Source: Robertmurraya massiliosenegalensis JC6 | Lineage (GTDB): Bacteria; Bacillota; Bacilli; Bacillales; Cytobacillaceae | DNA length: 58,022 nt | Direction: 5' to 3' | Assembly: GCF_000311725.1 (NCBI RefSeq) | Contig: NZ_HE978511.1 | Span: forward strand, 1,064,671-1,122,692 | Shown: piece after piece, positions 1,112-48,994 of the stretch | How the letters are laid out: every line of letters starts with the position of its first letter | How positions within the stretch are numbered: position 1 is the first letter of the stretch | Translations under genes and position numbers: made by a program | Notes under the pieces: generated by a model | The model's database searches: none | Seen by the model: the letters and a program-made list of their open reading frames with translations, nothing else | What the model was told of the DNA's origin: nothing

Positions 1112-1136
1112 AAAAAGAACTACATTTAAGTAGTTC
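1112..1136 (-). terminator. Rho-independent terminator
   Basis: Stem GAACTAC/GTAGTTC (1117-1136) with a six-base loop is followed on the minus strand by a T-run (plus-strand A run 1112-1116). It sits directly after the stop of the frameshifted small gene at 1139, so it probably ends the transcript of the 38-codon peptide gene and that downstream gene. Confidence 0.7.
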
Positions 1137-1138
1137 CT

Positions 1139-1323
1139 TCAAGCAGATTCGATAATGATGACGTCTCTAATGTTCACAAGCTGGACGTCATAAGCGAGAT
1201 TCGCATTTCGAATTTCTATCATGCCATTATTGTAATTAAAGATGACCGTGTACCTCTCTTCATTAAACATGACGTCTTTACCTAGCACTTGTTCACAACT
1301 CCATCTCTCTCAATAGATAGCAT
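1139..1323 (-). pseudogene. small protein gene, apparently frameshifted
   Basis: An ATG at 1323 opens MLSIERDGVVNKC and then stops at TAG. The reading frame that continues (GTG at 1288 to TGA at 1139) encodes VLGKDVMFNEERYTVIF onwards, 49 codons of ordinary protein-like sequence. Adding one G at the junction near 1288 would join the two into a single protein of about 61 residues. Either one base was lost, the read is wrong, or the 49-codon GTG frame is used alone (GATGGAG about ten bases upstream is a possible ribosome site). The gene starts ten bases after the peptide gene stop, which suggests an operon. The family is not recognised. Confidence 0.45.
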
Positions 1324-1333
1324 ATACATCGTA

Positions 1334-1450
1334 TTAATGCATAACTCCAGGCTCTTCCTCATTTGGGTGAATTAGAGCATCTGGGCCAGCAGTATAGCTT
1401 CCAAAGAATGCAAGTAAAACAATCAGTAGTCCGCTTAGGAATCTTTTCAT
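1334..1450 (-). CDS. 38-residue secreted propeptide, candidate signalling peptide
   Basis: The ATG at 1450 has an excellent GGAGG site (1459-1463) eight bases upstream. The product starts with basic MKR, has a hydrophobic stretch (about residues 5-19), a likely signal-peptidase region near SYTAG, and an acidic tail ending NEEEPGVMH. This layout (positive N-terminus, export segment, short hydrophilic C-terminus) is that of Phr, PapR and NprX propeptides. It is divergent from an HTH-TPR regulator of the family that senses such peptides (start 1606). The mature peptide would be drawn from the last 5-10 residues. The coding call is well supported; the signalling role is inferred from shape and context only. 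Confidence 0.6.
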   Translation of the reverse strand: MKRFLSGLLIVLLAFFGSYTAGPDALIHPNEEEPGVMH

Positions 1451-1468
1451 AATTCCCACCTCCTTTTT

Positions 1469-1486
1469 ACATGAATTTTATCATGT
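1469..1486. promoter_or_regulatory. 18-bp palindrome, candidate operator of the HTH-TPR regulator
   Basis: ACATGA-ATTTTA-TCATGT is a perfect 6-bp inverted repeat in the divergent intergenic region. It overlaps the only plausible minus-strand -10 (TAAAAT) of the peptide gene. Compared with the PlcR box TATGNANNNNTNCATA, 7 of the 10 fixed positions match. It is a natural candidate binding site for the RNPP-type regulator encoded at 1606. Confidence 0.5.
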
Positions 1487-1516
1487 TAAAAGAAAGGATG
1501 AATTTTCTGAATTTCT

Positions 1517-1525
1517 TGATATAAT
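1517..1525 (+). promoter_or_regulatory. extended -10 promoter of the HTH-TPR regulator
   Basis: TGATATAAT is a perfect extended -10 (TGnTATAAT) for SigmaA. No good -35 lies 17 bases upstream, as is common for extended -10 promoters. Transcription would start near 1532, leaving an untranslated leader of about 74 bases before the ATG at 1606. Confidence 0.5.
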
Positions 1526-1605
1526 AGGGTAAATAGAGTGTTTTCTCGCAAATTCAGACGTTTTTATGCCCCATGATAAATATAGTTATATTCGGAGTGA
1601 ATTTT

Positions 1606-2517
1606 ATGGCAAGATATTTAGGGCAACGAATTAAAGAAGCAAGGGAACGCCTTGGATTATCCCAATATGAAACAAGCAAAGATATATGCACACAGGCATA
1701 TATTAGTAAAATTGAAAATGGAAATGTATTTCCGACAGCAGATATTTTACTTAAGCTTGCCGATCGATTTAGTGTGGATATTTCGTATCTCCTAGATATA
1801 TCAAGCATCCCTAGACATGATTATGTCATTGATACATTTTCAGAAATTAGAGAAGCGATTAATAATCGCAACTATGAGTTGGTACGTAGAATTATTAAGG
1901 CAGAATCAGATAATGAGTTATTTCAGCAAAGAAAATTATCTCAATTCTTGAAGTGGCATGAAGGAATTTGTTCCTTTCAATTAGATCACGATCTTCAACA
2001 TTCCATCCAATGCTTTGATGATGCACTTAATTTAACTGCCTCAAATAAAAAACTCTATTCTGAACGGGAAATCGAAATCTTAATTAGTAAAGCAAATATC
2101 TATAGTCAATGTCAGATGCTAAATGAAGCGATAAACGTGTATAGTGAGGCAATGGAGCACCTCAATAAATTTACAGAAATCGTTAACAAACATGTTCCTG
2201 TTAGACTGAACTACAATTATGCTAGAGTCTTACGTTTAACATCTCGACATGCAGATGCCATTCAATTTTGTGAACAAGGACTAAAGCTTACTGAAAAATA
2301 TCAGCTTATGTATTTAAAAGGAGACTTATACTTCCAAAAAGCACTGAGTTACAAAGCCTTAAACGAAATTGAAAAATCCATGGAGTCGTTTAATTTAGCA
2401 GAAATGGTGTACATATTGGAGAATAATCAATCCGCACTTCAGATGGTTAAAAACCACTTAAAGCTATTAAACGAGATCATATCGATTAGTGACCGTCAGG
2501 AACCACTCTTTTTATAA
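1606..2517 (+). CDS. RNPP-type transcriptional regulator (HTH + TPR)
   Basis: This 303-residue protein has an XRE-type helix-turn-helix at about residues 5-60 (RIKEARERLGLSQYE then YISKIENG) followed by an all-helical region with tetratricopeptide character from about residue 70 to the end. That order and length match PlcR/Rgg-size members of the Rap-NprR-PlcR-PrgX group, cytoplasmic receptors whose TPR domain binds an imported short peptide. The start is placed at ATG 1606 because GGAG at 1594-1597 is correctly spaced; an ATG 33 bases upstream has no ribosome site. The divergent 38-codon peptide gene is the obvious candidate ligand source. A generic HTH-TPR regulator without a peptide partner is the alternative. 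Confidence 0.75.
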   Translation: MARYLGQRIKEARERLGLSQYETSKDICTQAYISKIENGNVFPTADILLKLADRFSVDISYLLDISSIPRHDYVIDTFSEIREAINNRNYELVRRIIKAESDNELFQQRKLSQFLKWHEGICSFQLDHDLQHSIQCFDDALNLTASNKKLYSEREIEILISKANIYSQCQMLNEAINVYSEAMEHLNKFTEIVNKHVPVRLNYNYARVLRLTSRHADAIQFCEQGLKLTEKYQLMYLKGDLYFQKALSYKALNEIEKSMESFNLAEMVYILENNQSALQMVKNHLKLLNEIISISDRQEPLFL

Positions 2518-30895: not shown

Positions 30896-33800
30896 ATTTC
30901 AATCCACGCACCTATGTAAGGTGCGACGACAAGGATTATGCGGAAACTGTTAGTGCTAAAAGCATTTCAATCCACGCACCTATGTAAGGTGCGACGTGAA
31001 AATCTTGTTTTGAATTTAATGGCTGATAATTTCAATCCACGCACCTATGTAAGGTGCGACGATAGATGAGTCTCCTTTCAAAAGGGAATACATCAATTTC
31101 AATCCACGCACCTATGTAAGGTGCGACACTATATACGCATTGAACATGCTCCACTTTGCGATTTCAATCCACGCACCTATGTAAGGTGCGACCCGTGACC
31201 GTATTGGATTTAGCAAAGTACAAACGATTTCAATCCACGCACCTATGTAAGGTGCGACATCTATTCGCTCAACAAGTATTCGGGAACGGTACTGATTTCA
31301 ATCCACGCACCTATGTAAGGTGCGACGGTCCAGAAGGGCAATTACGAGCATTTGACAGAATTTCAATCCACGCACCTATGTAAGGTGCGACACGATGATC
31401 GCTAATGTACGCCGGGTCCACGACAATATTTCAATCCACGCACCTATGTAAGGTGCGACGCGAAAATGTGGCGCGTGCTTCATAAAATATACATTTCAAT
31501 CCACTCACCTATGTAAGGTGCGACCTGCCGACCGTATACACTTCGAATCTAGCAATCATTTCAATCCACGCACCTATGTAAGGTGCGACCGCTTTTATCG
31601 TAGACGGATGTAACAACAAGTCCATTTCAATCCACGCACCTATGTAAGGTGCGACGTAGACGAACATAATACCCTTTTGGAATTAAAAGAATTTCAATCC
31701 ACGCACCTATGTAAGGTGCGACCCTAATGGGTTATTCCATGTATTATCGAAAGCAATAATTTCAATCCACGCACCTATGTAAGGTGCGACAGATAGCAAT
31801 TCCACAAAATAGCTTTCTGTGAATTTAATTTCAATCCACGCACCTATGTAAGGTGCGACTCGTAGACCGAGAGCTGACCGAAATGGAATATAGCATTTCA
31901 ATCCACGCACCTATGTAAGGTGCGACCGGAAGTAATAACATTCGCGAAGGAAAGCGCGTATTTCAATCCACGCACCTATGTAAGGTGCGACTCGCAATCA
32001 GTTGCGAGTCGAGCGGATGGATGGCATTTCAATCCACGCACCTATGTAAGGTGCGACTTAAAACTACTTAAAGGTGATCCGATTGAAGTTACTATTTCAA
32101 TCCACGCACCTATGTAAGGTGCGACTCAAGATGGCCTTAGATAAGAAAGTAAGTGGTGGTATTTCAATCCACGCACCTATGTAAGGTGCGACACGGGTTT
32201 AAGTTTTGGAGTAAGGACCAGGAGCCTAATTTCAATCCACGCACCTATGTAAGGTGCGACGATGATACAATCATCGATGAATTTGCTGGAATTGGTATTT
32301 CAATCCACGCACCTATGTAAGGTGCGACAGTATTCGCTATCTGATATTGTTGCAGTTGAAAATTTCAATCCACGCACCTATGTAAGGTGCGACGTTGCAT
32401 CCTCAAAGTACATAGTACTCATCTTTAATTTCAATCCACGCACCTATGTAAGGTGCGACCCAACTCGGTATACACATCAATATCAAACCTTCCAAATTTC
32501 AATCCACGCACCTATGTAAGGTGCGACATCCTCAATACATTTTGTTAAATAGTTTTGAAGTATTTCAATCCACGCACCTATGTAAGGTGCGACATTATTG
32601 GGGGCTATTATCTCGCAAGGGAGCAGATGATTTCAATCCACGCACCTATGTAAGGTGCGACAGCATAGCCCCATCTTCTTGCGAATCTAACCACGACCAT
32701 TTCAATCCACGCACCTATGTAAGGTGCGACGATAAAAAGTTTGATTTTGATTTTGCGGATTTAATTTCAATCCACGCACCTATGTAAGGTGCGACATAGG
32801 AGTGTCTCAAGTGATTTCGTATACAGCTAAATTTCAATCCACGCACCTATGTAAGGTGCGACGCATTTTGGCTGTCGGTTTTGCCAGACGTCCTAAAATT
32901 TCAATCCACGCACCTATGTAAGGTGCGACCTTGTGGTGGCACTAATCAAAAAGACCTTTGCATTTCAATCCACGCACCTATGTAAGGTGCGACGTGCTTG
33001 AGGATGGAACACTCAGAGCCATCGAGAGCATTTCAATCCACGCACCTATGTAAGGTGCGACGTGCTTGAGGATGGAACACTCAGAGCCATCGAGAGCATT
33101 TCAATCCACGCACCTATGTAAGGTGCGACGATTTATCCATTAATCCTGATGATTATTTTACTATTTCAATCCACGCACCTATGTAAGGTGCGACAAGCTG
33201 CAAGAGCTTCAGGTGCTTGCGTGGTCTGATTTCAATCCACGCACCTATGTAAGGTGCGACTTTGGGAACCCTGATAAGATTGAATCCAGTATTGATATTT
33301 CAATCCACGCACCTATGTAAGGTGCGACCCTTAATAGGTTTAACCGTACCTATGAACGTAATTTATTTCAATCCACGCACCTATGTAAGGTGCGACACTT
33401 CATACACTTGTTTCCTCTCATCCTTATAATCATTTCAATCCACGCACCTATGTAAGGTGCGACCGAATACTTCTTGTAATCCCCTCTCACTCGGTAAATT
33501 TCAATCCACGCACCTATGTAAGGTGCGACGTTTACATCACTCACATTCTCCTTATTACATTAGACATTTCAATCCACGCACCTATGTAAGGTGCGACATT
33601 AATGGATAATAGTATACATAGTTTTGATGTATTTCAATCCACGCACCTATGTAAGGTGCGACAGAAAAGGAAGGAGGGAACGAGGGTGAGTAAACTATTT
33701 CAATCCACGCACCTATGTAAGGTGCGACATCGTAAACCGTGAATTTTGCATGAGGATTGAGGACATTTCAATCCACGCACCTATGTAAGGTGCGACAGAT

Positions 33801-36800
33801 TGACTCTGAAATACCCATCTTTATCTTCTTATTTCAATCCACGCACCTATGTAAGGTGCGACAAAACATGCCTTCTGTAAACGAGGTGGAAAGTAGATAT
33901 TTCAATCCACGCACCTATGTAAGGTGCGACCAAAAGTTCTTGTCGCTCTACCCTACTCGTGGTAATTTCAATCCACGCACCTATGTAAGGTGCGACGAGG
34001 TTCTTTCATTATTACAAAAATCGATTGTAATTTCAATCCACGCACCTATGTAAGGTGCGACGTTGATCGAAGCTAATTATAAGCTCGGTGTTATTATTTC
34101 AATCCACGCACCTATGTAAGGTGCGACCTCTTTTTTCTTTTTCAAACGAACTGCTGTAAGAATTTCAATCCACGCACCTATGTAAGGTGCGACGGTTATG
34201 CTCAAGGATTATTCGATACCATCATGGAAATTTCAATCCACGCACCTATGTAAGGTGCGACGTTGCTCGTGTTACATACACTGCATACGAAAACGATTTC
34301 AATCCACGCACCTATGTAAGGTGCGACGATAACGGACCATATAACACTAAATAATTTTCCATTTCAATCCACGCACCTATGTAAGGTGCGACAACGATAC
34401 AGAAGATTATATTCAGTATCGAGTTGATTTCAATCCACGCACCTATGTAAGGTGCGACTTGTGACAGTCATTACATAACAACAATCCATTTATTTCAATC
34501 CACGCACCTATGTAAGGTGCGACAGACAACTTAGTACCGATTTGGAAAGTGCAGTTTATTTCAATCCACGCACCTATGTAAGGTGCGACGTTATATGGCG
34601 TTTTACATACGGATACCGCAGAAAAATTTCAATCCACGCACCTATGTAAGGTGCGACCGGTCATAAATACGGTTTGTTAACTGTATTAGAGATTTCAATC
34701 CACGCACCTATGTAAGGTGCGACCAAAAGACATGGAGAAATGTAAGAGATGCATTTGGAATTTCAATCCACGCACCTATGTAAGGTGCGACAAGTAAACA
34801 CAAGGTAGGATTTGTTGAATAGAAATTTCAATCCACGCACCTATGTAAGGTGCGACAAGCAGCCATCAAGAGTATTAGTTATAGGCAATATCATTTCAAT
34901 CCACGCACCTATGTAAGGTGCGACGTTCTTAACTTCAGCTTCAGCTAATAAGTCCTTAAGTATTTCAATCCACGCACCTATGTAAGGTGCGACTCGGAGT
35001 ATCTGCCGGACCTCTTTTTATTTTGCTATTTCAATCCACGCACCTATGTAAGGTGCGACTCCGTAGAAGATTGAAAGGGTGAGAGTATGTTTATTTCAAT
35101 CCACGCACCTATGTAAGGTGCGACTCTTCGTTTCTGCTGTTCCAGTAAGAGATTCGCTAATTTCAATCCACGCACCTATGTAAGGTGCGACTCCGTAAGA
35201 CCGTCTCTAGCCCATCCTTCAATCAAATTTCAATCCACGCACCTATGTAAGGTGCGACACTGCATTCTTCCGTTTATCTGCTTCATCTAACTCTGATTTC
35301 AATCCACGCACCTATGTAAGGTGCGACCAGCTGATCACTCGAAGTCAGTTGGCCCGAATAAATATTTCAATCCACGCACCTATGTAAGGTGCGACTTAAA
35401 GGAATTACCTGAACTTGGGTACAAAGTATTTCAATCCACGCACCTATGTAAGGTGCGACTATAAAGACCTATTAGATGCAGGTGCCATAACAATTTCAAT
35501 CCACGCACCTATGTAAGGTGCGACTTTGTTTAAAGCATTAAATATAGAATCTGACGCAAAATTTCAATCCACGCACCTATGTAAGGTGCGACGCGGTGGC
35601 GGATGTTAGTGGGTCTAAGTCTAGATTGATTTCAATCCACGCACCTATGTAAGGTGCGACGGTACTAAGGGGACATCATCAGTAGAAACAATAATAATTT
35701 CAATCCACGCACCTATGTAAGGTGCGACACTAGTGGCAATTTATGAGTTTTACATAACTAAAAATTTCAATCCACGCACCTATGTAAGGTGCGACCTATA
35801 TAATGTACAATTGATATGAGGTGATTATATATTTCAATCCACGCACCTATGTAAGGTGCGACGCTGGATACATGAAGTTGCTTACAAACCAGATTCAATT
35901 TCAATCCACGCACCTATGTAAGGTGCGACAAACACCTGCTCAATACATTCCAACGGGATTTAGTATTTCAATCCACGCACCTATGTAAGGTGCGACCGAG
36001 TTTGATAAAAACGCTATAAAGGTAATTATTATTTCAATCCACGCACCTATGTAAGGTGCGACAAAGACTTGCAAGAACAATTTTGGAGGAATGCTATTTC
36101 AATCCACGCACCTATGTAAGGTGCGACATGTTTGCTGTTAAATTATATGATTTGGGCAAAATTTCAATCCACGCACCTATGTAAGGTGCGACGGTGGTAT
36201 TGTTGATAAAAGTGTTATTAGACAAATTTCAATCCACGCACCTATGTAAGGTGCGACTACAACTCAGGTAGTCATAAAGGTGGAATGTTTATTTCAATCC
36301 ACGCACCTATGTAAGGTGCGACACTTTTCATTTTGCTAGTGGTATTGTTGTGCCTATTTCAATCCACGCACCTATGTAAGGTGCGACCTTATTCCCTTTG
36401 ACGAAATAGACAGACTTAAAGAAATTTCAATCCACGCACCTATGTAAGGTGCGACGGATATTATTCAGAAGTAAACACAAGAGTAAGTATTTCAATCCAC
36501 GCACCTATGTAAGGTGCGACAAAAATATAGGCTCGTTCACGCTCATTAGTAAGCATTTCAATCCACGCACCTATGTAAGGTGCGACCTCTTTATTTTTGT
36601 ATTGGGAGGTTGAGTAAATGGGAATTTCAATCCACGCACCTATGTAAGGTGCGACAATAAAGGATAAGAATTTATTTTATCAAAATTTATTTCAATCCAC
36701 GCACCTATGTAAGGTGCGACTAGCCCCTTCTTAGATTTCTTTTATACGAAAGGAATTTCAATCCACGCACCTATGTAAGGTGCGACTATACTTCTGGCAA

Positions 36801-39800
36801 CACTTCTTGTAAATGAGCTAAATTTCAATCCACGCACCTATGTAAGGTGCGACACGATTTGAGGTTATTCCCGACATTCCAATACCGATTTCAATCCACG
36901 CACCTATGTAAGGTGCGACGTTTAACGGATGAACAACTTGATAAATTGTATAAGATTTCAATCCACGCACCTATGTAAGGTGCGACAAGAATGCATTTTA
37001 GGTGGTGATTAAGATTGGAATTTCAATCCACGCACCTATGTAAGGTGCGACGTATATAAGATTATCGCTCGTCATACTTACATGGGATTTCAATCCACGC
37101 ACCTATGTAAGGTGCGACGGTGATATTCGTCAGCCGATGATTATAATATTCCCATTTCAATCCACGCACCTATGTAAGGTGCGACAACGTGAAGCAGACT
37201 TCATAAATGTGGTGGTATGGAATTTCAATCCACGCACCTATGTAAGGTGCGACAGCAAGCCGTACCTGAATTAGAGGGTATGAGTGATATTTCAATCCAC
37301 GCACCTATGTAAGGTGCGACACGGACTGACGATTATACGCAATGGGTCGTAGGTGATTTCAATCCACGCACCTATGTAAGGTGCGACACAAGCTTATATA
37401 GTGTTTGACCGCTTGCAGCTAATTTCAATCCACGCACCTATGTAAGGTGCGACATGATTTATTCGTAGCAGCTAGGGATGATTGAAGAATTTCAATCCAC
37501 GCACCTATGTAAGGTGCGACTAAATGAATTTAATTCTGTAAGGAATCAACTTGCTATTTCAATCCACGCACCTATGTAAGGTGCGACTAGTAGGGGGCAA
37601 GAGTTTACTGGGTTTGTTCTATTTCAATCCACGCACCTATGTAAGGTGCGACATTTTTTTGACGTATCAACAGATTATTTATTAGGTATTTCAATCCACG
37701 CACCTATGTAAGGTGCGACGGAAAAGAAATAAACTAACATCGAAACAACTCGGTATTTCAATCCACGCACCTATGTAAGGTGCGACAAGGTTTACCAGTT
37801 AAAGACTCGCATCCAGGAGATTTCAATCCACGCACCTATGTAAGGTGCGACATGGAGGTCATGGTGACAGAAAGCTTTACTGGAATTTCAATCCACGCAC
37901 CTATGTAAGGTGCGACGCTGAATTTGCTGTACTGGACGAATTGCACCAATAAAATTTCAATCCACGCACCTATGTAAGGTGCGACAAAGGAAAATCGATA
38001 AAAAGTGCTTGGTGGGTCGAATTTCAATCCACGCACCTATGTAAGGTGCGACATGATGCGTGCAGGCTTGTTGTTAAGGCTTCGACATTTCAATCCACGC
38101 ACCTATGTAAGGTGCGACGCTTTAGCGAAACATGCTGGAGCTTTAGCCGAGATTTCAATCCACGCACCTATGTAAGGTGCGACTAGTAGGGGGCAAGAGT
38201 TTACTGGGTTTGTTCTATTTCAATCCACGCACCTATGTAAGGTGCGACATTTTTTTGACGTATCAACAGATTATTTATTAGGTATTTCAATCCACGCACC
38301 TATGTAAGGTGCGACGGAAAAGAAATAAACTAACATCGAAACAACTCGGTATTTCAATCCACGCACCTATGTAAGGTGCGACAAGGTTTACCAGTTAAAG
38401 ACTCGCATCCAGGAGATTTCAATCCACGCACCTATGTAAGGTGCGACGATTGACGCCCTTTATAAAGAGCCGATTATGTGGAATTTCAATCCACGCACCT
38501 ATGTAAGGTGCGACTATATCAGGTTTACTGGAACATGTTTAATGTGTTTATTTCAATCCACGCACCTATGTAAGGTGCGACAACCTCTGCGCTTTAAGTT
38601 TCACTGCGTCTATAATTTCAATCCACGCACCTATGTAAGGTGCGACAATGGACTTTATACTGACCTTGCCCCAACTTTCCTATTTCAATCCACGCACCTA
38701 TGTAAGGTGCGACCCGCAACCGGAATATGTGCAAAGTCTTGGAAGTGAATTTCAATCCACGCACCTATGTAAGGTGCGACGGTTAGACAAGAGTGGGAAA
38801 ACAACAGAATGGTATTTCAATCCACGCACCTATGTAAGGTGCGACACGAAAAACTAGAAGAGGAACTTTACCTCACCGAAATTTCAATCCACGCACCTAT
38901 GTAAGGTGCGACTAGCTTCAAGTAAAATAACCTTTTCTTCCCTCGTATTTCAATCCACGCACCTATGTAAGGTGCGACCTCCGATCTTTGTTGATAATGC
39001 AGAGTCTGTAACATTTCAATCCACGCACCTATGTAAGGTGCGACGAACCTACATGCTGGAATGGATGACCTAACTCATATTTCAATCCACGCACCTATGT
39101 AAGGTGCGACGTGATCGTAGTTAGCGTAATTGTCCCTAAATTTTTATTTCAATCCACGCACCTATGTAAGGTGCGACACCATGGCACTCTGGACCAAACG
39201 GCATACCGTCAATTTCAATCCACGCACCTATGTAAGGTGCGACTCGATTCGAAAAATCGTACGGTGTTTAGTCCACAATTTCAATCCACGCACCTATGTA
39301 AGGTGCGACTTCAAGCAAGAATTGATCATTAATGAGTCAGTAATATTTCAATCCACGCACCTATGTAAGGTGCGACTTGTAAGCGTTCCTGAATTCTTTC
39401 CACGCTTTCATTTCAATCCACGCACCTATGTAAGGTGCGACGCTCTTTACGATACACATTTGCTAAAAGTTGTTATTTCAATCCACGCACCTATGTAAGG
39501 TGCGACGTAATTCCTCAACTCGAATCGACACGATGTTCAGAATTTCAATCCACGCACCTATGTAAGGTGCGACTACATTGGTCCGTAAAAAGAAAGAAAT
39601 AAAAGAAATTTCAATCCACGCACCTATGTAAGGTGCGACATTTTACAAAGTGAAAATCCTAAATACCCACCGAATTTCAATCCACGCACCTATGTAAGGT
39701 GCGACAATAAGACGGTAGCAACGTCAATAAATTAAAGAATTTCAATCCACGCACCTATGTAAGGTGCGACAATCGATGAGGTCTTTTAAATCTCGCTCGT

Positions 39801-42800
39801 TAAATTTCAATCCACGCACCTATGTAAGGTGCGACATAGCCGTCACAACCTAGACCGTGAGGACGAAAGAATTTCAATCCACGCACCTATGTAAGGTGCG
39901 ACCATAGCTTCATCGACACCGTTGATTCGTAAGTGGTCATTTCAATCCACGCACCTATGTAAGGTGCGACTGCAAGTTTGGCAGGATAAAGTAACGTGCC
40001 TTGCTTATTTCAATCCACGCACCTATGTAAGGTGCGACGCAATTGTTATTCTCATTCTAACTCGGTGGCATATTTCAATCCACGCACCTATGTAAGGTGC
40101 GACAAAGAACCAGACCCTGACAATCCAACCCCACAAATTTCAATCCACGCACCTATGTAAGGTGCGACATGTAGTCGCTCGATTGGTTAGAAAAGCAGAT
40201 GATTTCAATCCACGCACCTATGTAAGGTGCGACGTTAGGCTGTCGGTTACTGGTTCATTGTTTACTAAATTTCAATCCACGCACCTATGTAAGGTGCGAC
40301 TCGAAATCCCTCCCTGGTCTTAAACGTGTATCTTATTTCAATCCACGCACCTATGTAAGGTGCGACGCGACATTCATTGCTTCTGCTACGTCTTTTGATT
40401 ATTTCAATCCACGCACCTATGTAAGGTGCGACATCAATAACGAAATACTAATGCTTTTGCGAAAAATTTCAATCCACGCACCTATGTAAGGTGCGACTCT
40501 GAGCTAACAAATTAATATCTGTAGAGATAGGAATTTCAATCCACGCACCTATGTAAGGTGCGACGTGCTTTGTCTCGCTGGAATCGAACGATTCAATTAT
40601 TTCAATCCACGCACCTATGTAAGGTGCGACCTATCTGTGCAAGTTCAGTCTTTAAGGAATCCAATGATTTCAATCCACGCACCTATGTAAGGTGCGACAT
40701 TCATGATCATTCGAACAAACATAGACATCTAATTTCAATCCACGCACCTATGTAAGGTGCGACGATATTGATCTGCTTTTACAAGTTATTACTCAATTAT
40801 TTCAATCCACGCACCTATGTAAGGTGCGACTATTTCAAAGTGTTTTGAAGAATTGGATTTAAAAGATTTCAATCCACGCACCTATGTAAGGTGCGACGAT
40901 ATTGATCTGCTTTTACAAGTTATTACTCAATTATTTCAATCCACGCACCTATGTAAGGTGCGACATAATCAACATCTACAATATACTCAGGATTCAAGAT
41001 TTCAATCCACGCACCTATGTAAGGTGCGACTACTACTGTTACTGAAGTTTTAGCTATATTTACTATTTCAATCCACGCACCTATGTAAGGTGCGACGTTT
41101 CCCCTATTTTGGATCGTGTTTCACCTTGCGGTATTTCAATCCACGCACCTATGTAAGGTGCGACTTCATGAACGTACCGAACGTGACAGCTTAAATTTAT
41201 TTCAATCCACGCACCTATGTAAGGTGCGACATTAGGTATTGTTGCTTTTGTAATGTGGCTAAGCAATTTCAATCCACGCACCTATGTAAGGTGCGACACG
41301 TTCAGCAGCTGACTTAATTTATGACCAAATAATTTCAATCCACGCACCTATGTAAGGTGCGACGATAACGAGATAGTTTTACCTGAGGGCACACCAGCAA
41401 TTTCAATCCACGCACCTATGTAAGGTGCGACATGTTTATCTTTTGGACTATTCTGGTTCAGATAGATTTCAATCCACGCACCTATGTAAGGTGCGACAAA
41501 AAGCACCAACTCAAACAAAAAGAGCTAAAGCTTATTTCAATCCACGCACCTATGTAAGGTGCGACATAAGCAACGATATTTAATGTAGTTGGATAGAGAT
41601 TTCAATCCACGCACCTATGTAAGGTGCGACGATCTTCACTAGATCTATAATGCGGATCTTCGTATTTCAATCCACGCACCTATGTAAGGTGCGACGAGAA
41701 ATCCCTGTAGCTTCTACAATTTGTTTAATAATTTCAATCCACGCACCTATGTAAGGTGCGACGGATTTCCTCCCTTGCTGTCGAATTAGGACGATTATTT
41801 CAATCCACGCACCTATGTAAGGTGCGACTGGAATACGCCGCATATGCCGCTACTAACCCAAATTTCAATCCACGCACCTATGTAAGGTGCGACATCTTAC
41901 CGACTTTATTTTTCATAACCCGTGAAGGGATTTCAATCCACGCACCTATGTAAGGTGCGACGTTGCTGTTATGGTGCCGAGGTAATGACTTAAGAATTTC
42001 AATCCACGCACCTATGTAAGGTGCGACAGTATCCAACCGATACGCATACGAACTTATGAAAATATTTCAATCCACGCACCTATGTAAGGTGCGACGAAAA
42101 TGATTTTGTCTTACACAACTCCATAGACATTTCAATCCACGCACCTATGTAAGGTGCGACGCGTCAAAAATCGTTTGGTCGTCACCTTCGCCCTGAAATT
42201 TCAATCCACGCACCTATGTAAGGTGCGACATCAAAAGTTGAAGAGAATCTAGAACGTATAAAATTTCAATCCACGCACCTATGTAAGGTGCGACTTCAAT
42301 GACCTCTGCTTGATATGGACATTCCAACAATTTCAATCCACGCACCTATGTAAGGTGCGACGTGCTTCCAGCAAAAAAGGATTAAAGACTTCATGGATTT
42401 CAATCCACGCACCTATGTAAGGTGCGACGATTTACACTTTGCACCATTTACGCAAGATACGATTTCAATCCACGCACCTATGTAAGGTGCGACTAGAAGA
42501 TGCCATTAAAGCACGACAAGCAGGAATTTCAATCCACGCACCTATGTAAGGTGCGACTTTTGAATATCAAGATATGACTTTATCGGTGAAAAAATTTCAA
42601 TCCACGCACCTATGTAAGGTGCGACGGATTTTCCGGATAATCCCAAGTAGATCCTTACCATTTCAATCCACGCACCTATGTAAGGTGCGACTAGTAAGTT
42701 TTCTACCAAATGACATTCCACCGTTATTTCAATCCACGCACCTATGTAAGGTGCGACCTGTAGCTGCAGCGCTAACACCCGTTGTTGTAGCCATTTCAAT

Positions 42801-43221
42801 CCACGCACCTATGTAAGGTGCGACTTGAGCTAGAGTATTTGTAAGGGTCAGGGCAAATATTTCAATCCACGCACCTATGTAAGGTGCGACTGCTTTGTCT
42901 CCTTCTTCGATTTGGACCTTTCGATTTCAATCCACGCACCTATGTAAGGTGCGACAATGGTGTCACTTGGTAATCCATTGAGGAGAGATTATTTCAATCC
43001 ACGCACCTATGTAAGGTGCGACTACTAACACAGACGTATGAGCCAGCAATCCTAATCATTTCAATCCACGCACCTATGTAAGGTGCGACCCTAGTGCTAA
43101 CTCTTTAGGTTGGTCGATGGAAATTTCAATCCACGCACCTATGTAAGGTGCGACGAGAAGCGGTCCGAGCAAAAGGGGCAGATGCACAAATTTCAATCCA
43201 CGCACCTATGTAAGGTGCGAC
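30896..43221 (-). CRISPR. type I-C CRISPR array, 186 repeats
   Basis: Reading every repeat start gave 186 copies of a 32-bp repeat and 185 spacers of 32-37 bp (mean period 66.5). In the crRNA direction (minus) the repeat starts GTCGCACC and ends GGATTGAAAT, with stem GTCGCACC/GGTGCG typical of type I-C. Repeats are nearly invariant; the copy at 31493 has one G-to-T change in plus-strand orientation. The leader-proximal end is at 43221 next to cas2; the oldest end is at 30896. Spacer duplications: 32994 and 33062 (adjacent), a four-spacer block at 37588-37819 and 38184-38415, and 40764 and 40898. That leaves about 179 distinct spacers. Short reading frames inside it are translations of repeats. 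Confidence 0.99.
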
Positions 43222-43390: not shown

Positions 43391-43681
43391 TTATAGAATC
43401 ATGGTACCCTCTATATCTAGTGATTCCTTAATTCCAATATGTTGAACCTTGGTTTTATAGTTATTCCCTAATCGATAGAATCGAAGGCTATCCGTACTCT
43501 CATCAATAATACCCATCAACTCAAATTTCAAAGACTCGAATTGTGTTGAATCCAAAACACATTCAAATACTGAATTTTGAACTCGTTGACCATAGTTTTG
43601 ACATACCTTTGAAACTTTTCGTAGCCTTCTCTGTCCCCCAACACTAACTGTACTAACATCATACGTTATTAATACAAGCAA
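43391..43681 (-). CDS. cas2: CRISPR-associated endonuclease Cas2
   Basis: The 96-residue ferredoxin-fold protein starts MLVLITYDVST with the conserved Asp8 and has RRLRKVSKVCQNYGQRVQNSVFEC, the typical Cas2 core. It bridges two Cas1 dimers in the adaptation complex that adds new spacers. It is the last cas gene, eight bases after cas1 and next to the leader. Confidence 0.97.
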   Translation of the reverse strand: MLVLITYDVSTVSVGGQRRLRKVSKVCQNYGQRVQNSVFECVLDSTQFESLKFELMGIIDESTDSLRFYRLGNNYKTKVQHIGIKESLDIEGTMIL

Positions 43682-43689
43682 ATGATCAC

Positions 43690-44721
43690 CTACTTCCAGA
43701 AAAATGGCGGATATTCATCCAAATCTTCTCGCAAGTATCGAGCTAATAAAATCGCTTGTGCATGTGGAACTAATCCCCAAGAAATTTTTTCTCCTAAATA
43801 CGGATGTGTGATTTGTTCCTGTTTTCTTGCCTGCCATTCAGATAAAAATTTCTTTCTTGCTTCATCCGTCATGATCACGGCACCATTTTCCTTCTTTAAA
43901 AAATCGTCCTTGTTCATTATCTTTTTATTAACGAGCGACAACACAAATCTATCAGCAAATGCTCCTCGTAATTCTTCCATCATATCCAATGCTAAGGAAG
44001 GTCGCCCAGGTCGATCTCTATGTAAGAAGCCAACGTAAGCATCCAAACCTACCCCCTCTATAGCAGCTGCCGTATCATTGGCTAACAAGGAATACGAAAA
44101 TGATAGCATAGCATTAACATTATCAAGGGGAGGTCTTCTTGAGCGAGAATGGAAAAAGAAATCCTCTTTTTGCTGTAAAATCATTTGATCAAACAATTTA
44201 TTATAGCCAAGCGCTGCCTGTCCTTCCCAGCCCCTTAGCATTTCCAAGTCTTCACACTTTCTAACCTCTCGAATAATAGCAGATAAATACTGAGATACAG
44301 CCTTAAATTTCGTTACATCGACCCTAAGTGGATAATCTCTAGTCATCCTTTCAATTATCCACTTATTATTATAAATCTTGCTCACAATGAAATTCCTTGC
44401 TACCTTTGCTGAAAGTACTTCATTATCAGAAATACGGTACTGGATTTTCCTCAATACCACATTGCCTTTACTTTCACCCGTTACTCTTGCTAAAAATCGG
44501 CCATTCCTCGTGAAAAATGTTAATGAGATATTCTTATCTGCACAATAGCCCATAAGCGCAGGACTGGCACCAGTATATCCAAAAGTAGTAATTGCTTCTA
44601 GATTATGTAAAGGGATTCTAGCTAGTTTTTCATCTTCCTTTTGGATAACAACGTTTTCTCCATTTAAAGATAGATAGACATCAGGCTGCGTAACATAAAG
44701 AGTATTCAGTAACTTTTTCAT
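43690..44721 (-). CDS. cas1: CRISPR integrase Cas1, type I-C
   Basis: The 343-residue protein has the metal site of active Cas1: Glu166 in RGWEGQAALGYNKLF, His234 in VGFLHRDRPGRPSLALDMMEELR, and Asp246/Glu249 in the same segment. It carries out spacer integration together with Cas2. The start overlaps the end of cas4 by four bases, so the adaptation genes are translationally coupled. Confidence 0.97.
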   Translation of the reverse strand: MKKLLNTLYVTQPDVYLSLNGENVVIQKEDEKLARIPLHNLEAITTFGYTGASPALMGYCADKNISLTFFTRNGRFLARVTGESKGNVVLRKIQYRISDNEVLSAKVARNFIVSKIYNNKWIIERMTRDYPLRVDVTKFKAVSQYLSAIIREVRKCEDLEMLRGWEGQAALGYNKLFDQMILQQKEDFFFHSRSRRPPLDNVNAMLSFSYSLLANDTAAAIEGVGLDAYVGFLHRDRPGRPSLALDMMEELRGAFADRFVLSLVNKKIMNKDDFLKKENGAVIMTDEARKKFLSEWQARKQEQITHPYLGEKISWGLVPHAQAILLARYLREDLDEYPPFFWK

Positions 44722-45380
44722 TCATTCACTCTCCCCTCAATATAATTTTTCACGGATCGTTTGCTCATTATGGATGGCATACAAATATTTTGAAGGGAGC
44801 ACTGATTGCAATATGCACCAGTTTTAACTTTAGGTGTGTGTCTTCTAGTATAGTAATCTAGCATTTCAATAGCTGTATTTCTGACTATATTTTTCTTTTC
44901 CTCTGTTATTGGAATCTCTACCCTATGTTTTATCTCATTGTAATACAAATAGCCTACCTCAACTTTACATAGGAGCATTTCCTCTATGCACATCGCTTGA
45001 GCAATTAATTGTAAAACATCAGAATCGTTTGACTTTGGTTTTCCACGCTTATACTCAACTGGATAAGCCCTGTATTTACCTTCTAAACCATCAATTTCAA
45101 CACCATTTACGGAGTCCTTAACAAACTCCACAACATCACATACTCCAGTGATTTTAAGCTCATTTGATCTTATTGGCATGGCTCGAACAATCAATTTATC
45201 TCCACGTTTCTCCCTTATAAAAGGCTTGTCTGCTTTTTGGTGAAGATGTTGCCCTTGAACGGTTCGAACATTTTCTGCCCATTGTTGCTCAATATGAATC
45301 AAAGCCCACTGTCGCTTGCAAAATTGGAAATGTTGGATTCCGGAAAGCATCAAATATTGTTGTTCATCTTTATAGTCCAT
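44718..45380 (-). CDS. cas4: CRISPR-associated exonuclease Cas4
   Basis: This RecB-like nuclease of about 220 residues has the four iron-sulfur cysteines: one near residue 21 (FCKRQWAL) and three near the C-terminus (GAYCNQCSLQNICMPS). The nuclease core has VCDVVEF and YPVEYKRGKP. In type I-C it trims prespacers and selects for the PAM with Cas1-Cas2. ATG 45380 is used, so the gene overlaps the end of cas7 by about 11 bases. Confidence 0.95.
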   Translation of the reverse strand: MDYKDEQQYLMLSGIQHFQFCKRQWALIHIEQQWAENVRTVQGQHLHQKADKPFIREKRGDKLIVRAMPIRSNELKITGVCDVVEFVKDSVNGVEIDGLEGKYRAYPVEYKRGKPKSNDSDVLQLIAQAMCIEEMLLCKVEVGYLYYNEIKHRVEIPITEEKKNIVRNTAIEMLDYYTRRHTPKVKTGAYCNQCSLQNICMPSIMSKRSVKNYIEGRVNE

Positions 45381-46233
45381 CAATGCTCTCTACTTTGAGG
45401 CCCTCTAATTCATAAACTTCTAAAGAATAATCTTCAAAGGAGTTTGGTTTATCAACTTTTGATTTAATATCCAGAGAACGGTGTACTTTAGCAGCAGAAT
45501 ATTGTCCTAATTTTGAATTATGTTCCCACCAGAGCACCTTATTCACTTCCATACTCCCATCTGGTCTTGCTGAAGAAGAATCATTTTCAAATAATGTTAC
45601 TAATGCTTGTTTTATCTTATCTGCATCCTCATATGAAAAACCTGTTTTTTCAGCAAGTTGTGTATTTATACTTCCATAAAAAACATAAACCCCAAAATCA
45701 ACTCGATGCTTCATTCCCATTGTATCGGATGTTTTTTTATCAGGATCTTTAGTATTCGTTGTGGAATTTACACTTTTCGTAATTTGCATACTTGAAATAT
45801 CGATTGGTGACAAGCTAACTGCTGTATGAAGAGATACTGGTCCTCTTATACCAATTGAAATCTCTGAACCACTAAAAGCGAAAACTTGTCCAAAACTACG
45901 AACATCCATCCACGACTCACAAGCTATCTTTTCATAAAGGAAATTATCTTTTGTCTTACCCTTCGAATACTTAGTCAATTCCTCATTTGCATCAACGCGG
46001 TCCTTTATGCTTCTATATCCATCATTACGTCTTTCATCAGATTGCACTAGAATGGACTCTCCCATATCCTGAAGACGATTCCTCAGTTTTCTTTTTAAAG
46101 CAACATCAGAAATTTCCCCATAACCGTCATAATTTTGTCTTGGTCGGTTTCCATTTAAAGGGTCACCATTGGGATTGGCATTGCGCACAGTTAAAACAAC
46201 AGCAAAATCAATTTTGTGATCTAATATAGACAT
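45370..46233 (-). CDS. cas7: Cascade backbone protein Cas7 (Csd2), type I-C
   Basis: The 287-residue RAMP protein has the Cas7 opening DFAVVLTVRNANPNGDPLNGNRPRQ and the conserved SVNSTTNT and MGMKHRVDFGVYVFYGSIN segments. Multiple copies coat the crRNA in the I-C effector. It lies three bases after cas8c, and its 3' end is overlapped by cas4. Confidence 0.97.
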   Translation of the reverse strand: MSILDHKIDFAVVLTVRNANPNGDPLNGNRPRQNYDGYGEISDVALKRKLRNRLQDMGESILVQSDERRNDGYRSIKDRVDANEELTKYSKGKTKDNFLYEKIACESWMDVRSFGQVFAFSGSEISIGIRGPVSLHTAVSLSPIDISSMQITKSVNSTTNTKDPDKKTSDTMGMKHRVDFGVYVFYGSINTQLAEKTGFSYEDADKIKQALVTLFENDSSSARPDGSMEVNKVLWWEHNSKLGQYSAAKVHRSLDIKSKVDKPNSFEDYSLEVYELEGLKVESIDGL

Positions 46234-46236
46234 AGT

Positions 46237-48111
46237 TTACATCTCTCCCTTTTCTTCATCTTTTTTCTTTCCTTTGTATAGTGCATGGCGCTGGCTATAA
46301 AATCCTAGTAGGTACATTCCTGAAAGTGGTTCATCTGTAAATTCATTAGGTTTCATTTTTGAACCTACTTCATCTAATAAACTACTTAAGTAATTTAATC
46401 GTGTTCCTAACTTTGCTTGATAAGGCTGAATACTTGCTTGAATGACATTCCATGTTCTGAAAGGATGCCGAGAAAATGCATTCATATACCTTATTGCATT
46501 TGTTGAACGTTTTTCATCATTATCGAGGGCCGTTCTTTCTAATACGTCTGCAATTGCTAGCATTCTACCAAATAAATAATCACGATTATCATTGTTTTTA
46601 TCTAAAGCCACATCTATCTCCTCCTTTTCATATGTTTTTCTTATTAATGCACAAGCAATGCTAAGAGTCTTTTCCCATTCCCACTTATCCATAGAAACAG
46701 GATTAGAAGCCCTATTAAAAACACTCTTCACTATATCCAATGGTATAGCTCTTCCATCTATAATAGAAGGTAGCATTCTTTCAACTAGCCCCTTTATTAC
46801 CTTTTCATTTACCTTCAATCCATAAGCGGCAAAGGCAATGTCCTTAGTTGCTGGGGCTCCATGAAATTTGATTCCCTTTTTATATTGGTGAAGCCAATAG
46901 CAAGTTTTATGCCAATTCTCTATTCTGTTCAAGAATAGATCTTTATCCATATCACGATAATAAACCACTGACATTCGTCCTGGAGTAGCAGCGTCAATGA
47001 TCATGATTATGACGCTAGACTTATACTCAAGACTATTTCTATAGCCTGAAATTGCCAATTGCACTTGGCTTGCAAATTCCTTATGAGTTACATCCCCCAA
47101 TAGCTCCGATTCAAAATCATCATATAACCCTAGAGTTTCAGAATCTTCATAAGGAGATGGAATTTCTACATTATCTTTTCCCCATACGAGGAAAACTTTC
47201 CCATCAATTGTATAACCCTGTTTAGCGATCAACCATTTCAAGGCATTATGTGCTTTTTGTGAGACTTCATTACTAATGGAAACTGCTTCTCGAGTAGTTT
47301 TAAAACGACCAAAGTATGTTAATTTACTATTATTCTTACATATTAATTTGGCCATATCACCAGGACGACGAATCCCTGATGCATGTTTCTCTGTTGACGG
47401 TAAAATTTTCCCAGTCACATAACATAAATCCATATCTTCTAAGGAGTCTTCATAGAAACTCGTAAAAGATTTATGTATAGATGAATCTCTCCACAACCTT
47501 AATTCTGGTTCCCCTACTGTAATAACAGAAAATCGAACAAAGGCCTCACTTTGATCTGAATTTAGCACCTTAAACAATGCTGGTTTTTCTCCATATTTTT
47601 CTTTAATACTATTACTCCATTTTTCAATAAATCTATTATTCTCATCAACATAAATAATTCCTTCATTGACTAAGTCTTCAATTAACCTACTCTTCTTTAC
47701 GTAGGTATACACGCTCTTTACCTTTGGGTGGCCATATTTAGAATCACACCAACTTTTTAATTGAGTCATATAATCAGAGTGTGGGTTTCCTTTTTTTGCT
47801 ACACCACCATACTTCAAATAATCTCCTGCAACGTAAACCAACTTATCAAATAAAGGATGCGGTGCTGGCGCACTTGTCCTATTTGCTGATGCATCTGTAC
47901 ATGGAACAATTGTGCTTGCATCGCTTTTCTCTACTACCTTCGCAGAGATAAAATTACCATTAATATCTAAAACAACTTCAATCTGGGCACTTTGAGTAGT
48001 ATGAGCAACCGGAATAAGAGCATATTCTTGATCAAACTTATTTTTCTCAAATTCTCCTATAAATTTATTATTTGAATTATATGTTTCGTATAGATTTCTT
48101 AACCATGTCAT
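46237..48111 (-). CDS. cas8c: Cascade large subunit Cas8c (Csd1)
   Basis: The 624-residue protein starts MTWLRNLYETYNSN and has PLFDKLVYVAGDYLKYGG, typical of Csd1/Cas8c, which recognises the PAM and recruits Cas3. Family members have an internal start that yields a Cas11-like small subunit from the C-terminal part; a candidate region would be around residues 480-510, but I could not single out a start. The gene abuts cas5 with no gap. Confidence 0.95.
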   Translation of the reverse strand: MTWLRNLYETYNSNNKFIGEFEKNKFDQEYALIPVAHTTQSAQIEVVLDINGNFISAKVVEKSDASTIVPCTDASANRTSAPAPHPLFDKLVYVAGDYLKYGGVAKKGNPHSDYMTQLKSWCDSKYGHPKVKSVYTYVKKSRLIEDLVNEGIIYVDENNRFIEKWSNSIKEKYGEKPALFKVLNSDQSEAFVRFSVITVGEPELRLWRDSSIHKSFTSFYEDSLEDMDLCYVTGKILPSTEKHASGIRRPGDMAKLICKNNSKLTYFGRFKTTREAVSISNEVSQKAHNALKWLIAKQGYTIDGKVFLVWGKDNVEIPSPYEDSETLGLYDDFESELLGDVTHKEFASQVQLAISGYRNSLEYKSSVIIMIIDAATPGRMSVVYYRDMDKDLFLNRIENWHKTCYWLHQYKKGIKFHGAPATKDIAFAAYGLKVNEKVIKGLVERMLPSIIDGRAIPLDIVKSVFNRASNPVSMDKWEWEKTLSIACALIRKTYEKEEIDVALDKNNDNRDYLFGRMLAIADVLERTALDNDEKRSTNAIRYMNAFSRHPFRTWNVIQASIQPYQAKLGTRLNYLSSLLDEVGSKMKPNEFTDEPLSGMYLLGFYSQRHALYKGKKKDEEKGEM

Positions 48112-48837
48112 TTAATCACCCCTTTTGTGAAAAACCTCTTCATACAGTACTTCAATATCTTGTATATTAGATTCGTCAAATTTCTTTGGTGACATTTCTC
48201 CAACTTTCCGAACCATGATACATTCATCTGGACGAATGAATTTTATGACCCCAGCTTTCATACTCGCCCTCCATAGCCGTGTTTCAATATTTGTCCTACC
48301 TGTTTCATCTGGATAATTCAGACCATGAACCATTACACCAAAGTCAATTTCACCTGGATATTCATCATAAAATCCGACTCCTTCATCAAATACACATGAT
48401 TCAACATACCCTTGACATTCTCTAGAACCAAGAAAAATATCTCTTCTACCTCCGACTTCAACAGCTCTCTTAGCAATACTAAAATGTTTATTTTCATTTC
48501 GATCAAAACCCAAATCTTTTCTATGTGGATTAAATACAAAATGTGCACGGACTTGATATTTAACGTCTTTCAAATAAGTATAAAATGCCAAATCTCCCTT
48601 TTCATCTTGATATTTTTTTAATCGAATCCCTTTTGATTCTGTTTGAATTGGATTCATTACACGCACTTCATCAATTATCCACATTATTGTAGGCTTCCAG
48701 TAAATTGATTCAACAATTCCTTTCAAACTTTGATACGTAGGGATTTGATAGGACATTTTCTCTCCTCCAATTTTTGTTAATGGATCGGTGAATAATGCAT
48801 ACCTACCTGATACTTCAAATTCAATTTGGTTTCTCAA
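48112..48837 (-). CDS. cas5: Cas5d, crRNA-processing endoribonuclease of type I-C
   Basis: The 241-residue RAMP protein starts [18 protein letters not shown] and is very similar to B. halodurans Cas5d. The catalytic triad known there (Tyr46, Lys116, His117) appears as Tyr46 in ESIYWKP and Lys117/His118 in DRNENKHFS. It cuts pre-crRNA within the repeat, replacing Cas6. TTG 48837 is the start because GGAGG (48845-48849) lies seven bases upstream and the alignment begins there; a longer frame from 48858 would bury that ribosome site. Confidence 0.95.
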
Positions 48838-48959
48838 ACTTGCACCTCCAGTAATCAAAATATTTTCATATCGATACTTTAAAAAATAAGAAACATAGTT
48901 TCATTATTACTAAACTTCTATTTTCATCCCCATCTATTTTGAAAACTTTCTATTATTCA

Positions 48960-48992
48960 AGAACTCATCTTTATTAAATTGATGAGTTTTTG
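48960..48992. terminator. hairpin between cas3 and cas5
   Basis: AAGAACTCATC pairs imperfectly with GATGAGTTTTT around an eleven-base loop, directly after the cas3 stop. The T-run is on the plus strand, so it is a weak terminator for cas3 itself and could instead be a processing or attenuation point separating cas3 from the Cascade genes. Confidence 0.4.
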
Positions 48993-48994
48993 TT

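Follow-up and report, generated by a model that had tools for sequence, protein, structure and literature searches.

A 58,022-nt stretch of DNA (hereafter the window, to whose positions all coordinates refer) carries, in all likelihood, a self-contained PlcR-type (RRNPP) quorum-sensing pair, in which a regulator gene and a propeptide gene lie in divergent order and the peptide-bound regulator autoinduces the propeptide operon. This reading is supported by the conservation of the pair, by selection on the peptide tail, by the family and predicted fold of the receptor, and by an association between the tail and the peptide groove. Judging from the sequence comparisons, the 38-codon gene very probably encodes the signal of the adjoining regulator. 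The features of the locus are listed in Table 1.

Table 1. Features of the divergent receptor-propeptide locus, with positions in the window.
Feature	Position	Strand	Basis
Terminator-like stem-loop with T run, predicted end of the propeptide operon	1113..1140	-	Stem of 11 pairs followed by a T tail
49-codon gene directly behind the propeptide gene	1139..1288 (coding 1142-1288)	-	Conserved in place in 4 further congeneric genomes
Propeptide gene, 38 codons plus stop	1334..1450 (coding 1337-1450, stop 1334-1336)	-	ORF, ribosome-binding site, clade conservation
Putative pheromone, codons of EPGVMH	1337..1354	-	Codon comparisons of 5 orthologues
Ribosome-binding site of the propeptide gene, AGGAGGTG	1457..1464	-	Sequence reading; caller context AAAAGGAGGTGGGA
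Putative extended -10-like element TTGATATAAT, toward the regulator	1516..1525	+	TATAAT core identical in 6 orthologues
Candidate operator and/or regulator promoter element ATAAATATAGTTATAT	1576..1591	+	Invariant 16-column run
PlcR-type receptor/regulator gene, 303 aa	1606..2517 (coding 1606-2514, stop to 2517)	+	Pfam, phmmer, AF2, Foldseek

The regulator ORF as listed opens at ATG 1573; ATG 1606 is the preferred start because of the alignment with homologues and a GGAG site. Its product has an N-terminal HTH_3 domain (residues 9-62; 45.5 bits in Pfam, cut-off 23) and a TPR peptide-binding RNPP_C domain (residues 80-281; 60.7 bits, cut-off 26.5), and three TPR models also exceed their cut-offs. 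Its size fits that of RRNPP receptors, which a figure legend of PMC10075063 gives as about 250-500 aa with an HTH plus TPR architecture. The best solved relative by sequence was PlcR (2qfc, E 6.3e-18 in phmmer), and PlcR was again best (E 2.3e-46) with a profile built from 61 relatives. The AlphaFold (AF2) model had a mean pLDDT of 93.9 and a pTM of 0.76. In Foldseek its closest PDB chain was 3u3w_A (PlcR:PapR7:DNA; E 2.8e-12, TM 0.73), and the five top matches were all PlcR chains, with 22% identity to PlcR in the structural alignment. These results bear out the RNPP-type HTH-TPR regulator that the sequence-only reading had proposed. Residue N204 of the regulator corresponds, in an alignment with PlcR mapped by hand, to PlcR N201, which we take to be the equivalent of PlcRa N205. 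According to a docking legend of PMC3519770, PlcRa N205 is the Asn that holds the peptide main chain. This column is no family constant, as 32 of the 34 downstream-layout receptors have Gly there (the exceptions being L138 and L140).

The propeptide gene, whose translation is MKRFLSGLLIVLLAFFGSYTAGPDALIHPNEEEPGVMH, has its start codon 155 bp from that of the regulator gene. Its ATG is preceded by AAAAGGAGGTGGGA, and the ribosome site is strong, so that the earlier description of a 38-codon gene with a strong ribosome site, divergent from the regulator, holds. The product consists of a basic N-terminus, a hydrophobic segment (12-residue stretch), a linker and a putative C-terminal pheromone, and the n-region and h-region of a Sec-type signal are recognisable by eye. 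The same reading had seen an exported propeptide here, and the basic start, the hydrophobic segment and the tail were retained from it; its 'TAG cleavage region' is not conserved, the counterparts in orthologues being AGPDA, A-PDA, DTTSI and DTTSI. No conserved AXA-like signal-peptidase site was found among the five focal orthologues compared.

In codon comparisons of five same-genus orthologues, all 29 differences in the last six codons (EPGVMH) were synonymous, against 10 synonymous and 71 non-synonymous differences in the linker; the ten pairwise comparisons are non-independent and include two orthologues that are near copies. The stop codon varies between TAA and TGA and its position is kept. 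At the level of these codon comparisons, silent-only changes in the tail beside a free linker are the signature of a pheromone under selection as protein. The mature form would be EPGVMH, perhaps extended to EEPGVMH or by one or two residues.

The focal clade comprises seven regulators on a starred branch (100), six from the genus of the window and one, L020, from another. The search for the same divergent pair in relatives, which had been proposed as a check, found it kept in 7 of the 7 sampled members. Their tails were EPGVMH in five and DPGSMH in two, with seven more residues after the tail in L020. The PG core was confined to this clade, the other 70 of 77 peptides having an LP or IP core.

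Homologues of the regulator (E <= 1e-20) were present in at least 98 of 193 family genomes and in 25 of 398 genomes drawn from the class. The sample consisted of 136 distinct regulators, each of at least 250 aa. A first round of 130 ORF hits had given 111 distinct regulators, with L014 and L015 (broken or partial) excluded; L149 and two L146 fragments were left out, L149 and one of the fragments for want of a start and the second fragment because its 150 aa fell below the length limit. For the family loci, the best 30 and 60 further stretches among the matches listed were taken, not all of them. To be called, a propeptide had to have a ribosome site, an N-terminus both basic and hydrophobic, and a tail of the form (LP, IP or PG)xx[HFYN], the last motif being counted as the pheromone even with trailing residues (e.g. 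L020, L031, L136). Since this motif was picked after the first loci, tails of other types score 'none', and the weight is carried by the controls and not by the count. L057 was also scored 'none' because of masked letters within its propeptide. A Rossellomorea plasmid relative, L166, with the tail RPDGVH, surfaced only in a motif-free listing.

By this caller, 43 of the 136 regulators had a divergent propeptide gene and 34 a downstream one, in a sample which favours the divergent layout and the focal side of the family because similarity to the focal receptor was the basis for drawing it. The divergent order is one of the two main layouts among the sampled relatives, and is present in several families of Bacilli; the expectation that it would be unusual in Bacillaceae was therefore not upheld. 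The remaining 59 regulators had no propeptide by the caller, which indicates that receptor and adjacent peptide are not obligatory partners. A regulator found widely without the peptide gene had been named in advance as evidence against the pair; such cases numbered 0 of 7 in the focal clade and 59 of 136 in the wider sample. As wrong-strand controls, the caller was applied to same-strand upstream positions, where it gave hits for 2 of 136 regulators, and to convergent positions, where it gave 1 of 136; all three hits resemble real propeptides, and the one at L090 belongs to a neighbouring regulator. Shuffled divergent flanks gave 0 hits in each of 5 shuffles and shuffled flanks overall 0 or 1, dinucleotides being kept where the simple routine succeeded and single bases otherwise. 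When the tail motif was dropped, the contrast was weaker, with 55 divergent and 55 downstream calls versus 22 and 37 in the wrong-strand controls.

On the tree of 136, with the rows lacking a propeptide left out, the layout switched twice; one switch had been counted on the first tree (111 regulators), and two after six plasmid rows were added. These trees are quick, with many open forks, and being unrooted they make no call on which layout came first. The downstream group has mostly repeated tails (GIPSEH, GLPTQH, DLPSQH; up to 12 copies) and the divergent group mostly single ones (ELPTIF, ELPSVH, RLPYQH and others).

Other arrangements were also observed. At L059, L060, L062, L063, L065, L068, L076, L088, L091 and L102, two RNPP regulators lie divergently, head to head, one with a downstream multi-copy GIPSEH propeptide and the other with none by the caller. 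At L070 and L074, two RNPP regulators have a divergent ELPTIF propeptide gene between them, and a single peptide may therefore serve both. Downstream of eleven propeptide-less regulators (L037, L038, L048, L050, L051, L054, L055, L059, L064, L072 and L076), ten of which belong to a single 26-row clade, lies a gene for a secreted protein. From a motif recognised by eye, we take this protein to be LysM-like, and it is a possible target of these regulators. On plasmid pBpOF4-01 of Alkalihalophilus pseudofirmus OF4 (L164), an RNPP regulator with a divergent propeptide ending in LDLPYIHT adjoins YcaO-like and TOMM leader-binding genes and may have a peptide natural product as its target.

According to passages of PMC6568020, Lys89, Gln237 and Tyr275 of PlcR contact the glutamate at position -2 of PapR7 in the crystal. 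Their counterparts in the focal regulator, mapped by hand from alignments, are R88, D240 and A277. In a set of 77 receptor-peptide pairs with 28 distinct hexamers, column 88 ranked 1 of 217 for peptide position -2 and was also first for position -1. For position -2 it kept first place when only divergent rows were used, when each hexamer was represented by one row and when the focal clade was left out, and came 6th of 219 in the 34 downstream rows alone; for position -1 the corresponding ranks were 1, 1, 2 and 19. Receptors paired with ELPFEH, ELPYEN or ELPHEN carry Lys at 88, like PlcR with LPFEF, and those paired with ELPTIF, ELPTVY or ELPSVH have a small or hydrophobic residue. Exceptions are Trp with GIPSEH and Met with ELPSEY, as well as Arg with EPGVMH, DPGSMH and ELPLMH, yet Leu with ELPSMH. 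The association goes back to 4 independent changes, 3 of them on starred branches, too few for a sign test to reach 0.05, and the independent-pairs covariation tests (3 pairs on starred branches, significance unattainable) were set aside. The check for covariation between tail and groove, also proposed earlier, pointed in the expected direction: column 88 came first in 4 of 5 row sets, with few independent changes behind it.

For position -2, the contact columns 88, 277 and 240 had weighted ranks of 1, 6 and 35 of 217 and unweighted ranks of 1, 10 and 25; in the 34 downstream rows alone they ranked 6, 147 and 3. A rank test on the three contacts together (0.0010 of random triples) was discarded, as it ignores kinship and was chosen after the ranks had been seen. 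Asp at 240 occurs in 7 of 7 PG-core receptors and in no others among the 77, and at 277 the PG-core receptors have Ala or Ser, in contrast to the Phe or Tyr of most others. The contrast between PG and LP amounts to one clade, so that every clade-specific column fits it, and at least 13 columns besides D240, among the 14 columns listed, are equally clade-specific for the PG core. The plasmid relative L166, with its non-LP tail and an uncertain position in the tree, shares the Asp at 240.

Between the two genes, ATAAATATAGTTATAT is the longest invariant run (16 columns in 6 orthologues), and 14 of its 16 positions, counted by eye, are conserved in L021. An inverted repeat with 6-bp arms, AATATAGTTATATT, lies within and beside it. 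This AT-rich run could equally be a promoter, because its end sits 14 bases before the regulator start codon. The genome contains no exact copy other than this one, and none that differs at a single position. A genome-wide regulon via this element was considered and rejected: copies with up to 2 mismatches numbered 26 in all versus 25 in the reversed control, and since two-mismatch copies are at control level no regulon is claimed. The consensus promoter scan did not return TTGATATAAT and was itself set aside (4 sites versus a shuffled mean of 7.5).

The 49-codon gene behind the propeptide gene is probably the second gene of the propeptide operon. It is found at the same place in four other genomes of the genus, with best matches of 62-79% identity; a search at E <= 0.01 did not recover it from G180 (L021) or G077 (L020). 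Its product had no Pfam match and no NCBIfam match; distant relatives occur elsewhere in the family, with up to 4 matches per genome. Terminator-like sites in the region numbered 3, versus 1.0 expected from shuffles.

The locus lies between tRNA genes and a SpoVR-like gene. L005-L008 keep this neighbourhood, with a SpoVR gene of 92-94% identity on one flank and tRNA-Glu, tRNA-Met and tRNA-Ser on the opposite one, so the locus is chromosomal and inherited in place in these, and a mobile-element origin of the focal pair was rejected. SpoVR was not found in the short flanks of L020-L022. Distant relatives, none over 36% identity, occur in seven plasmid records at E <= 1e-20 and in a single phage record at E <= 1e-10. 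The genome of the window itself holds three further RNPP regulators; a paralogue (L002, contig C3, about 607471-608337) has a downstream propeptide with three GIPSQH copies. Elsewhere in the window, a 36-bp tandem repeat (positions 1-154, 4.3 copies) adjoins the tRNA genes, and a very large array, in which the 32-bp repeat ATTTCAATCCACGCACCTATGTAAGGTGCGAC alternates with spacers of roughly 33-36 bp, extends from about 31828 to 42955. Adjoining ORFs at 43391-51406 resemble cas2, cas1 and further cas genes by eye. These gene names and the assignment to type I-C are our assumption, and the array, of about 11 kb, is presumably a CRISPR.

In the PlcR/PapR system the peptide is exported, trimmed, re-imported by Opp and bound in the TPR groove. 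For the pair described here we infer export, processing, import and binding; the same goes for the operator, for whether control is positive or negative, and for the output. The 38-aa propeptide would be exported and its C-terminal EPGVMH, or the slightly longer form, released. The released peptide would re-enter the cell through an oligopeptide permease (Opp) and occupy the TPR groove of the divergently encoded regulator. The peptide-bound regulator would then change its grip on the shared intergenic region and control the operon of the propeptide and the 49-aa protein, and perhaps its own gene too, resulting in autoinduction. As the genome has no other copy of ATAAATATAGTTATAT with fewer than 2 mismatches, the simplest circuit would be local. 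The genome encodes nine SBP_bac_5 peptide-binding proteins, which are unspecific as support for peptide import.

This circuit might run differently at export. The receptor and short peptide genes of streptococcal Rgg/SHP systems are divergent too, and the propeptide, with 38 aa, a 12-residue hydrophobic stretch and no conserved AXA site in 5 orthologues, might be exported and trimmed in the manner of SHP, by PptAB and an Eep-like protease, and not by Sec and signal peptidase I, the circuit being otherwise the same. This is rather unlikely, given the basic n-region and Sec-like h-region of the propeptide and the AXA-like sites seen by eye in propeptides of family relatives, e.g. L035 and L039. 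Secretion of SHP by PptAB is stated in part of PMC9765709.

Two further explanations would separate the small gene from signalling to its neighbour. The regulator might answer another peptide, with the small gene encoding an unrelated secreted or membrane peptide under its control; the propeptide-less relatives and the additional RNPP regulators and GIPSQH propeptide of the same genome would fit this. It is an unlikely explanation, however, in view of the strict conservation of the tail beside a free linker, the association of the tail with groove residue 88 across the 28 hexamers, and the divergent pairing throughout the focal clade. It is very improbable that the small ORF is conserved merely as DNA, as a leader or antisense element with an inert product: it does border a regulatory intergenic region with conserved DNA elements, but all differences in its tail are silent, which points to selection on the protein, and its stop codon varies between TAA and TGA at the same place. 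The divergent, autoinducing PlcR-type pair is preferred.

A broader reading of this pair is possible, if doubtful. It holds that the divergent order is old, and perhaps ancestral in PlcR-type systems of Bacilli; that the focal lineage switched its pheromone core from LP to PG and its groove changed along with it, at the positions matching PlcR Gln237 (now Asp) and Tyr275 (now Ala/Ser), changes which rest on one clade; and that the pair is a private one-operon circuit in which the undescribed 49-aa protein is the only constant partner in the genus.

Taken together, these features make a well-supported case for a PlcR-type RRNPP pair whose layout is widespread among relatives, and not exotic, and whose pheromone core deviates. 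As far as seen, the breadth of the divergent layout, the PG-for-LP focal core and the conserved 49-aa gene appear to be new. No description of divergent PlcR-type pairs in Bacillaceae was found among the titles and abstract openings of the papers listed, and print may hold one; the data of PMC10075063 and PMC12700828, which have figure panels on gene orientation, may include divergent pairs of the PlcR cluster. According to part of a 2022 survey whose search covered both sides (PMC9765709), the pheromone lies immediately downstream in Bacillales RRNPPA systems; the present sample shows a second, divergent layout beside that one. The 77 receptor-peptide pairs also form a ready set for tests of coevolution between peptide and groove, in which the switch between PG and LP is a compact case.

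Among known systems, the pair resembles PlcR/PapR of the Bacillus cereus group in receptor architecture and fold, and in a propeptide with a signal-like N-terminus and a C-terminal pheromone. With Rgg/SHP of streptococci it shares the divergent order, and the fold is related (Rgg2, 4yv9_D, E 1.1e-5 in Foldseek). Rgg, however, belongs to another receptor subfamily, one without recognisable TPR sequences as described in part of PMC9765709. PlcR/PapR differs in gene order, papR lying about 70 bp downstream of plcR (a passage of PMC6753895) on the same strand. The peptide differs as well: PapR7 is ADLPFEF (an excerpt of PMC6568020), and its LP core is common to most of the relatives' tails found here, whereas the focal tail has PG instead; Gln237 and Tyr275 of PlcR are replaced by D240 and A277 in the hand-mapped alignment. 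In PlcRa of B. cereus, a PlcR paralogue, papRa is reported upstream of plcRa, the strand not being given in the portion of PMC3519770 consulted, and the propeptide gene is thus placed upstream of the receptor gene as here; PapRa, however, has 93 aa and an internal CSIPYEY pheromone (same source), unlike the C-terminal focal tail. TprA/PhrA of Streptococcus pneumoniae, in which TprA is called a PlcR orthologue, belongs to another host and is sugar-dependent, but could serve as a model for autoinduction in the focal pair: by the account in part of PMC6753895, TprA represses phrA and phrA activates its own expression, a combination that would suit a divergent promoter such as the one proposed here.
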